Source of the DNA: Caulochytrium protostelioides
Lineage: Eukaryota > Chytridiomycota > Caulochytriomycetes > Caulochytriales > Caulochytriaceae
Direction of reading: 5' to 3'
NCBI GenBank assembly: GCA_003615045.1
Contig: ML014162.1
Span: 52,357 to 116,356, forward strand
Length of the DNA: 64,000 nucleotides
Both the position numbers and the translations under genes were made by a program. The notes under the pieces were generated by a model, which saw only the letters and a list, made by a program, of their open reading frames with translations, was not told where the DNA came from and searched no databases. Shown here piece by piece: positions 4,791 through 7,694 of this stretch (positions are counted from its first letter, which is position 1; every line of letters starts with the position of its first letter).

Positions 4791-7694
4791 CTAGGACGGG
4801 GGCGACCGCGAGGCCGGGAGCGCGCCGGCGCCAGCAGACCCGTCCTCCTCCATCGCGGCGGTCCCGCCACTCTCCGCCAGCAGCGCGGTGGCCGTGCCGG
4901 CCACCTTGCGCTTCGGCGACCCCGGGAGCGTGTAACACGCGCGCACGCAGCCGCTCCCCGGGTCGGCGGCCGTCTCAGCGTCGCTCAGCCCGGACGCCGC
5001 CGTGCTCGATGAAGCACTGGACGGCGCGGCCGCGCACATGGGCATCGGTGACCGCAGCGTTGTCTCGCCGCCTGTGCGGCGGACCGCATCGCTAATGGCG
5101 GCGTCGTCCATGGCGGCGTCGTCCATGATGGCATCCGTCGATGCCAATATGGGCGGCGGCGGCACGGCCGCCGCCAATGCCGACGCCAGCTGCAGGCGCT
5201 GCGCCTCGACGGCCGTGTCAACCACTGCATTGTCTTCCGCAATCTTGGCCACGATCGACGGGTCGACGATCCCGGCCGACACGAGCGCCTCGTAGGACCC
5301 ATCCGCGGCGACCGCGGCTTCTGGTCGGGGCGGTACCGGTGGCGCGTAAGCATACCAGAGACTGACGACGTCGCCCGCGTTGCCGACGACGAGCTCCGCC
5401 GCGACGGGGGCGACGGTGCCGCGGGCATATTGCATCCACTGCCCGTCCACTTGGCGGTAGGACACGACGACCTGCGCAGGCAGGACCGATCCATGCGACG
5501 CCGCGGCGTCACTGGTGCCGGCGCTGTTCCCGCCCGTCGCGGCAGTCGCCGCGGGACCGACCGGCAGCCCCGTCGACGGCGCGTCCGGCATCGACCATAC
5601 GGCCACGAGACGGTACGGCGTCTCGCAGAGCGCGGGCTCGTCATAGAGCGACTGCAGCTCGGCCGTGAGACGAGCCTTGGCGTCGGCGATCTGGGCGGTC
5701 CAGGAGCGCGTGACGGCGACGGCTGAGCGGAGGGCGTCCGCGGCCTGCCGCGATCCTGACGGGTGCGCGGCGCGTGCCGCCGCGTCGTCGTCCGCCGTGG
5801 TGGTCGCAGACCCAGCGAGGGACGCGAGCCAGTCCGCGCAGTCGGCGGTCCGCACGCGCAAGTGGTCCTGGGCCATGCTCTGCTCGACATCCGCGAGCTC
5901 CTGCAGGTCGCGCAGGAGGTGGATCTTGCGCTGCGTCGCTTGGAGCACACGGCTGCTGTGGCGCTGGTAATACCGGTCGAGGTACAGCACTTCCGGCACG
6001 TGGCTGACACATGGCAGCGAGGTGGCGGTCCCGAACCGGATGACGTGGACGGGCGGTACCGACGCTTCGGGCGCGGACGGGGAGGTAGGCGGCTGCAAAT
6101 AGGTCTTGACGTGCATCAGGTCCTTGACAGTCACGTGGCGTGCGGCGCCGTGTGTGGCAAAGAAGAGCGGATCAAGCACATCGTACAAATTGTCGTTGGC
6201 CGTCAATACGATCATGGGCAGCGTCTCGGCCTCGCGTCGCACGGTGGCCGAGGGCCCCAACGGGCGCTCGGCCGCCGCGAGCGCTTCCGATCCCGTCGAC
6301 GTGGCGGCCGCCGCGGGCGCCGTGGCTGCCGCGGCATAGGAAAAGCCGGTGGGCGCGGGCTCGGAGTCCACGATGCGGTCGCGCGTGATGCCGACGTGGA
6401 ACAAAGCCGCCAGACGGCGCGGCGGCGCGAACTCGGCCAAGAGGTCGTCGAGCTGGTCGTGCAGCAGGGCCAGCGTCTCGTTGAACCCGAGCCGCGGCGA
6501 CGCGAGCGCGCGCTCGGGCGTGTGGCGCAGCTCGAAGTGGTGCGTGCGGGAAGTCGGTGCCAGCAGCGCTTCAATGAGGCCCACCGAGAGCTGACTGCGG
6601 CGCGAGCCGCGCGCTGCGGCGGCGGCCAGCTGCAGGGCGGCTAGCAGATACGTTTGCCGTGGGACGCGCGGGAGCTGTCCGATCGCGTTGGTGGGCGCGC
6701 TGCGGGACGCCGGTCGCCCTACCGCCGCCGGGGCCGTGACGGCGTCGCCCTCGCTGCTATGCAGTAGCGCCATGGCCTGCTCGAAGGTCGGCTGAGCAAG
6801 TTCAAATCCGAAGGTGTTCATTGACAGAAGGGCCTCACACCATCCGGGTATCGCGGTCAGCACCATCATCAGATGCGCGATCCACGCGCTCGGCGTACCG
6901 AGGAAGGCCACCGGCATCGTCTCGGCCCGCGGTAATGGGGGTGAGAATGAAGACGACGAGGCGGCGCCGCCGTCAAGCGACAGATGCGGCATACTGATCA
7001 AACTCGGCAGCAGCGGAACGGTCGACGGCAGGGTCACGACGGCGCGGGCCGGACTCGCCGCGGCGTTCTGCGACGTGCTGGTGCTGCCGCCACCACGGTA
7101 CCCGTGGCTGTGCGCCGCGGCGCTCACGACCGCCTGAGGGGCATGGGAGGCATGAGACGCGTCGGTCTCGTCGGCCAGTGAAGCCGCGATCGCGCGCTGC
7201 AGGTCGTCGTCGTCGTCGCCGCTGGGCCCCGCGACGAGGTCGACGACCTCGCTCTCCGCCGCTTGCGGCGTCGGCGCGGCGATCCGGCGGCCGTCGCTCG
7301 CGGCCGCGGCGGCGTGGCTTTGCTCGGAGAATCGGACGTTGCGCGACTGCCGATCGTTGCGGCGGGCGGCGGCGGCGGCCGAAGCGGCCGCGTAGCTGGA
7401 GGCCGGGGCATCGCCCGCCGCGCCGGCGGACCGCGGCGGGCTGCCCGTGAGGTCATAGACCGGCTCGGCTTGCGGAGATCGCGCCGCGGCGGCCGAGGTG
7501 GCAGCGGCGGGCGTCGGAGTCGCGGCCCCGGCGCTCGCGGCCCGGGTGGCGGCGTTGGCGGGCACGCGGCGGTGCTCAAAGTAGTATTCGACGGCGCGTT
7601 CAGCGCTGTTGCCGCAGTACGCGAGCAAGGCCGTCGCGTCGTCGGTCGAGATGGAGAGCATCATCGCGACGTCGGCGGCCATGGCGGCGCTCAT
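4791..7694 (-). CDS. USP25/USP28-like protein with UBA and UIM, predicted catalytically dead
   Basis: 967 residues from the ATG at 7694; the open frame continues upstream but has no earlier ATG. Order seen: UBA-like helix bundle (residues about 5-45), Ala-rich linker, one UIM ([15 protein letters not shown], about 160-175), then a USP fold beginning near residue 261. USP25/28 landmarks are clear: [16 protein letters not shown] followed by a Lys/Arg helix, then PYRLVAVW and a QVDGQWMQY segment. The Cys-box, normally GNTCW, reads GTPSAW, so the catalytic Cys position is Ala270 (codon 6885-6887). In the His-box the GHYWAY motif is missing and the His position aligns with Ala in [9 protein letters not shown]. 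UBA-UIM-USP order is that of USP25/28, which bind and cleave ubiquitin chains. Here I infer ubiquitin binding without hydrolysis. The C-terminal 250 residues are low complexity. The family call is strong; loss of activity is inferred from the alignment. Confidence 0.82.
   Translation of the reverse strand: [967 protein letters not shown]

Follow-up and report, generated by a model that had tools for sequence, protein, structure and literature searches.

A stretch of 64,000 nucleotides of Caulochytrium protostelioides DNA (contig ML014162.1, positions 52,357 to 116,356; hereafter the window) carries at 4791-7694 of its minus strand a 967-codon open reading frame (ORF), identified by ORF calling, coding statistics and family searches. 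We consider it somewhat probable that its product is a pseudo-deubiquitinase derived from the USP25/USP28 class, which pairs through its insertion and probably acts by binding, not cleaving, ubiquitin chains and perhaps SUMO. According to this proposal, a USP25/28 descendant would have lost its catalytic motifs and retained the SUMO-interaction motif (SIM), the ubiquitin-interacting motif (UIM) and both roots of the insertion. The insertion would form a USP28-like helical stalk and dimerise the protein, while the ubiquitin-associated (UBA) domain and the UIM would bind ubiquitin. The dimer could then act as an avid reader, shielding chains from, or presenting them to, active deubiquitinases such as L024, a Ubp2-type enzyme of the same genome, or HECT-ligase partners. 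The loss of catalytic motifs, together with a kept ubiquitin-binding motif and the stalk roots, makes a role in holding or shielding ubiquitin likely, and "ubiquitin reader or scaffold", as a preliminary description of the locus proposed, appears to be the best reading.

Relationship to USP25 and USP28

When the whole protein was compared with 177,635 Protein Data Bank (PDB) sequences, just two matches were found at E ≤ 1, both to USP25, the best at 18 bits. Residues 1-176 searched alone had USP25 at ranks 1 and 2 (E 0.046 and 0.6) and the UBA of USP5 at rank 3. For residues 562-773, all five matches at E ≤ 10 were to USP25 or USP28, the best (USP25) with E 0.23. A profile built from USP25, USP28 and L024 scored 15.6 bits on the core (residues 180-967), more than any of 6000 shuffles (best 15.1), and when the same profile was applied to 632 ORFs, the core was outscored by USP ORFs only.

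Five USP25/28 blocks taken in collinear order scored 122, a value reached by none of 10,000 shuffles (mean 11.4, standard deviation 9.5, maximum 60.5); as in the block scans and column comparisons below, these blocks had been picked where kinship was already visible, which weakens the comparison. Among 75 ORFs of at least 400 residues, the protein ranked first by this score and L024 second (102.5), all others reaching 67 or less. Two unbiased scans against shuffles covered all of USP28 in 88 scan windows and the catalytic domain of USP25 and USP28 in 40. In the first, six scan windows had p < 0.01: two over the SIM-UIM region, one at the DRY entry of the insertion and two at its exit, all collinear, plus one off-diagonal. 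The second gave six such windows in the protein, two of them off-diagonal, and twelve in L024. Three islands survive across USP28, namely the SIM-UIM, the insertion entry VLYLDRY and the insertion exit PYRL. The family assignment of the preliminary description is borne out by the PDB matches and the collinear blocks; relatedness to USP25/28 is supported, and the protein appears to descend from a USP.

Loss of the catalytic motifs

The Pfam UCH model (PF00443) had no match to the protein at E ≤ 10, and the 19 matches to this model elsewhere in the genome did not include the gene. Six patterns for the Cys-box, His-box, QQD and YND motifs gave zero matches in the six frames of 4500-8000. At the Cys-box and the two His-box scan windows the protein was at chance (z -0.4, 0.2 and -0.1; p 0.64, 0.40 and 0.53), and these are the windows where L024 was strongest (z 11.4 for the Cys box, 13.0 and 14.4 for the His box). 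Compared with USP28 over 31 catalytic-motif columns, L024 matched in 21 and the protein in none; when each motif was allowed to slide by 6 residues, the protein reached 5/31, and Fisher's test against L024 on that best-case count gave 7.8e-5. Over the other 134 columns, which come from chosen blocks and are biased toward equality, matches to USP28 numbered 34 for the protein and 36 for L024. None of the 32 scan windows across the USP28 C-terminal domain had p < 0.01 in the protein.

The losses are thus concentrated in the catalytic motifs relative to the intact Ubp2-type relative from the same genome, and to that extent the selective loss described earlier is upheld. The further statement that exactly the active residues were lost and the rest retained is not confirmed in that form: UCH is undetected, the Cys-box and His-box windows score at chance over their full length, and little of the core and nothing of the C-terminal domain can be recognised. 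As far as can be read from sequence, the loss extends beyond single residues to entire motifs and to the greater part of the catalytic core. The Cys-His-Asn/Asp triad in its Cys and His boxes appears to be missing, as in pseudo-deubiquitinases, with the exact residues at the sites being placed by indirect means (see below), and no C-terminal domain of the USP25/28 type is recognisable.

Retained putative ubiquitin-binding region and insertion roots

The N-terminal region of USP28 is made up of a UBA, a SIM and UIMs, as described in the main text of PMC6509359, and a comparable region appears to be present here. The UBA-like domain occupies residues 1-42 (7569-7694, minus strand, as are all features of the protein below) and matches Pfam UBA_4 at E 0.0055. 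In the AlphaFold model residues 1-41 form a unit of three helices predicted with confidence, the predicted local distance difference test score (pLDDT) of ten-residue blocks being 85-93 over residues 1-40 and 74 over residues 41-50. The UIM (residues 160-175; 7170-7217) matches its Pfam model at E 0.0013, and two further, weaker UIM-like matches were found. Retention of UBA and UIM, as claimed in the preliminary description, is therefore seen by Pfam for both, but weakly, at values below the cut-offs. A SIM-like EVVDLV (residues 149-154; 7233-7250), which aligns to VIDL of USP25/USP28, sits upstream of the UIM, as VIDL does in those enzymes. The SIM-UIM scan windows of USP28 scored z 4.9-6.2 against shuffles. 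A second SIM-like motif, VYDLTG, was noted at residues 79-84 (7443-7460).

The block around VLYLDRY, the entry of the dimerising insertion (residues 562-599; 5898-6011), was equalled by none of 5000 shuffles, and neither was the block at residues 663-702, which contains the insertion exit PYRLVAV (residues 693-699; 5598-5618). The entry scan windows had z 8.4 and 7.2 and the exit window 6.7; both ends are better kept than in L024 (8.4/6.7 versus 4.6/1.9). Between them lies a UCID-like insertion of 117 residues (576-692; 5619-5969), compared with 121 in L024 and 185 in USP25/28. Given residues 562-705 without an alignment, AlphaFold returned a two-helix hairpin (567-630/634-685) with a mean pLDDT of 74. 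Sequence and model thus agree on a helical insertion flanked by strands of the VLYLDRY and PYRL types, and dimerisation through it is predicted. The insertion of USP28 is described in the main text of PMC6509359 as a stalk of helices through which the enzyme dimerises, with invariant interface residues.

Two further blocks of the catalytic domain can be traced. The thumb-helix block (residues 346-383; 6546-6659) was equalled by 10/5000 shuffles with USP25/28 and L024 as reference, and by 134/5000 with USP25/28 alone. The W..Y(ND) block (residues 744-765; 5400-5465; 18/5000 shuffles) forms a beta hairpin in a low-confidence AlphaFold model. All the short segments named in the preliminary description are present: VLYLDRY at 569-575, PYRLVAV at 693-699, QWMQY at 752-756, GTPSAW at 266-271 and LPAQVVVSY at 738-746; its report of missing Cys and His boxes likewise agrees with the pattern, column and window scans.

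Points against the assignment and residues at the triad sites

Several results weigh against the reading given above. A profile of USP25 and USP28 only scored weakly on the core (7.8 bits), with 1/6000 shuffles higher. Both unbiased scans contained off-diagonal windows at p < 0.01, and the one from full-length USP28 shares its diagonal with one from the catalytic scan. An ungapped scan with the USP28 UBA gave no match to the UBA-like domain. For the QQD motif no position in the protein is secure, its block being at chance (equalled by 2018/5000 shuffles). The full-length AlphaFold model, made with two USP28 rows, had a mean pLDDT of 34.5 and shows no USP fold; it is confident for the UBA only, all later ten-residue blocks being at 56 or below. 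Foldseek fold searches returned zero matches at E ≤ 0.001 and no USP among the best 50 rows of each.

Placement of the catalytic Cys is subject to similar reservations. The full Cys-box scan misses position 270, its best score being no better than chance (4036 and 3527 of 5000 shuffles). Position 270 comes second when 14 USPs supply the Cys helix, and six MAFFT alignments are split, setting Ala270 opposite the Cys in two, Ala329 in three and Cys286 in one, a three-sequence alignment. The Cys helix of USP25/28 with the Cys masked fits best at position 270 (348/5000 shuffles reach it), as does that of USP25, USP28 and L024 (439/5000). The placement at Ala270 (codon GCG, 6885-6887), in the probable Cys-box helix remnant of residues 270-292 (6819-6887; helix scan and two alignments), therefore rests on a weak helix match and collinear order. 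We prefer Ala270 to Cys286 because the helix following Ala270, within which Cys286 falls, fits best there, though this is not proof. A Cys box at 325-346, with Ala329 at the Cys site, was also considered; no space would remain between it and the thumb block at 346, and its score is at chance (z -0.4). Either placement, 270 or 325-346, gives Ala at the Cys site. The Cys-to-Ala270 change proposed earlier thus stands as to the codon, but its placement is disputed by the other alignments.

At the His site, spacing points to Ala740 when counted from Trp753 (codon GCG, 5475-5477) and to Val742 when counted from His734; alignment gives Gln741 in one MAFFT alignment, Thr727 in three and a gap opposite the His box in two. 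The block scan for the His box ranks residues 730-761 second, a further point against. No reading puts a His at the catalytic His site, so this part of the earlier claim of Ala at the His position is sound, while Ala itself competes with Val742, Gln741 and Thr727. The YND of USPs reads YAR here, with Ala757 (5424-5426) at the third triad position, which seems lost as well. Overall, the probable residues at the triad sites are Ala270, Ala740 (or Val742) and Ala757. Since the protein is 21.5% alanine (208/967), three alanines at presumed triad sites are unremarkable in themselves.

The alignment that sets Cys286 opposite the catalytic Cys would fit a protein that uses other residues to go on cleaving ubiquitin or a ubiquitin-like protein, and precedents call for caution with inactivity calls made from sequence: triad residues are missing from USP52 and USP39, for which activity has nevertheless been claimed, according to one review (PMC10919355), and USP53 and USP54, once filed as inactive, proved active, as reported in PMC12037411. 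The triad of USP54, however, is canonical in that same report, no Cys-box or His-box pattern is present here in any frame, and Cys286 lies inside the helix after Ala270; the sequence seems to offer no motif for another Cys/His pair in the cleft. We regard residual cleavage as very improbable.

It is possible, though we doubt it, that this was once a USP25/28 gene on which selection has relaxed, the catalytic constraint having gone first and the remainder now drifting to decay. Such drift would agree with a catalytic core and C-terminal domain that are mostly unrecognisable, with an intact Ubp2-type L024 that could cover the function, and with the outcome of the protein searches, which also counts against the pseudo-deubiquitinase reading. 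Searches of 5.8 billion proteins found only the protein itself, both with residues 225-860 at E ≤ 1e-3 (best 7992 candidates) and with residues 495-705 at E ≤ 10 (5494 candidates). These searches need shared five-residue words, and by estimate USP25 itself (18 bits) would fail the E ≤ 1e-3 cut-off. Diverged orthologues may therefore exist, since such searches miss matches as weak as USP25. In a further search passed by 4003 proteins, the best 120 were near-identical USP28 sequences, the named species being all primates, with no fungal member. Against decay speak 967 codons without stop or frameshift, native-like codon use, insertion roots kept better than in L024, and chosen non-catalytic blocks that are as near to USP28 as those of L024.

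Coding status of the gene

The ORF runs from an ATG to a stop codon with zero internal stops, as the preliminary description had stated; in random sequence of the same composition, 967 stop-free codons have p = 1.4e-9. Its G+C content at third codon positions is 0.85. A codon-score table was built from seven neighbouring genes, which score 0.302-0.485 in frame; the ORF has a mean of 0.296, and its other two sense frames -0.43. The in-frame score was positive in 16/16 scan windows of 60 codons, the lowest being 0.05 at residues 241-300. The ORF looks like a real coding gene. One antisense frame had a mean of 0.116 and exceeded the sense frame in 3/16 scan windows; in neighbouring genes this frame scores -0.045 to 0.108, and the GC-rich genes here tend to allow such antisense scoring. 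A 293-residue antisense ORF lies inside the gene (5763-6644, plus strand); it is likely an effect of composition, because one antisense frame of the local coding genes scores near zero. A promoter scan, made with a tool designed for bacteria, found nothing.

The weak score at residues 241-300, and a neighbouring DUF4464 gene that is spread over two ORFs, apparently by an intron, might point to an artefact of the gene model, the catalytic exons being elsewhere or masked by a wrong frame. Catalytic boxes hidden in another frame were rejected on the zero pattern matches in the six frames of 4500-8000, and removal of the one intron-like stretch (157 nucleotides) that a simple pattern search detected would shift the frame. 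An artefact is hard to credit on these grounds.

Relation to L024

L024 (L024:672-4565, plus strand; G000:C46), which we take to be the fungal Ubp2, is of the Ubp2 type and intact. It has RPT and UCH domains and a 121-residue insertion of the USP25/28 type, and its best PDB match is USP28 (2.7e-22). The 967-residue protein has an insertion of similar length, but unlike it L024 keeps GNFCYLN, QQDVGEY, GHYW, YND and the RPT domain. The protein thus falls outside Ubp2 as defined by RPT and an active UCH, with no Pfam match to either. Over 136 columns, it matches USP28 in 34, USP25 in 32 and L024 in 24, and L024 matches USP28 in 38. It was nearer to USP25/28 than to L024 in 4952/5000 bootstraps, and in at least 1889/2000 whichever block was dropped. 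BLAST found no similarity between the protein and L024 at E ≤ 10. A recent duplication of L024/Ubp2 was rejected on these two results and on a search of the assembly for a second copy, which found none. The comparison, made with four sequences and chosen blocks, is suggestive of a USP25/28 lineage kept beside Ubp2 in one genome.

The similar insertion lengths (117 versus 121) raise the question of whether the protein is a pseudo-subunit that pairs with L024 through the insertion and regulates or targets it. The insertion does dimerise USP28 (main text of PMC6509359), and pseudo-deubiquitinases are described as allosteric activators or scaffolds in one review (PMC10919355). On the other hand, the protein is nearer to USP25/28 than to L024 and has no BLAST similarity to it, and the term heterodimer is absent from the main text of PMC6509359. 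Such pairing seems to us distinctly unlikely. A broader variant, in which the protein is a dedicated dead partner, that is, a dimerising ubiquitin/SUMO reader of a USP25/28 lineage coexisting with Ubp2, with stalk roots better preserved than those of the active Ubp2 and perhaps itself a regulatory pseudo-subunit of Ubp2, we also hold to be unlikely. If it were true, selection could evidently act on the non-catalytic half of USP25/28 by itself.

Comparison with known deubiquitinases

Like human USP25/USP28, the protein has an N-terminal SIM, UIM and UBA-like domain, and its VLYLDRY and PYRL segments bracket a helical insertion; unlike them, it has no recognisable Cys box, His box, YND or C-terminal domain, and its insertion is shorter (117 versus 185 residues). 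PAN2/USP52 and USP39/Sad1 belong to USP lineages other than USP25/28. Both are USP-derived and without typical triad residues, which the present protein shares, and act in deadenylation and splicing, respectively, according to one review (PMC10919355). The same review counts some 13% of deubiquitinases as pseudoenzymes; allosteric activators or scaffolds of this kind are known. Among the matches listed, literature titles and abstract openings held no pseudo-deubiquitinase of the USP25/28 class. Should the pseudo-deubiquitinase reading be correct, the gene would be a natural separation-of-function USP25/28, with the catalytic core gone and the ubiquitin-binding module and stalk kept, in which a catalysis-independent job for the class could be tested; USP25/28-type and Ubp2-type genes would stand side by side in one fungus.

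Genomic context

No second copy of the gene was found in the assembly (20.9 Mb in 337 contigs). UCH searches gave 19 matches, 18 of them over the cut-off, which were grouped into 15 genes; a Cys box and/or a GHY box could be read in 13 of the 15, the exceptions being PAN2 and L016. Other degenerate USPs could be missed by the UCH search, because the 967-codon gene itself escapes it. With five HECT ligase matches, the genome also offers potential partners in the pathway.

Neighbours of the gene in the window include She9/Mdm33, ARMC9 and DUF4464 genes; the first is presumably a fungal family and the other two ciliary, and these neighbours make a flagellated fungus the likely host. The DUF4464 gene (3537-4636, plus strand) lies tail to tail with the 967-codon gene, in two ORFs, with an apparent intron that has a short repeat around GCTCATGCTCATGCTTATG. 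A gene for an XRN 5'-3' exonuclease (8980-12375, plus strand) is divergent from the 967-codon gene.

The PAN2 orthologue (L015:369-4079, plus strand; G000:C17) has PAN2_N, UCH_1 and RNase_T matches. L016 (L016:3101-5353, minus strand; G000:C73) is a second degenerate USP, with a Pfam UCH match at E 0.0015, below the cut-off. Its Cys box seems to keep the Cys (NPDACTQTSLYN), and by reading its His box is GRFITY (His to Arg) and its YND site CRD.

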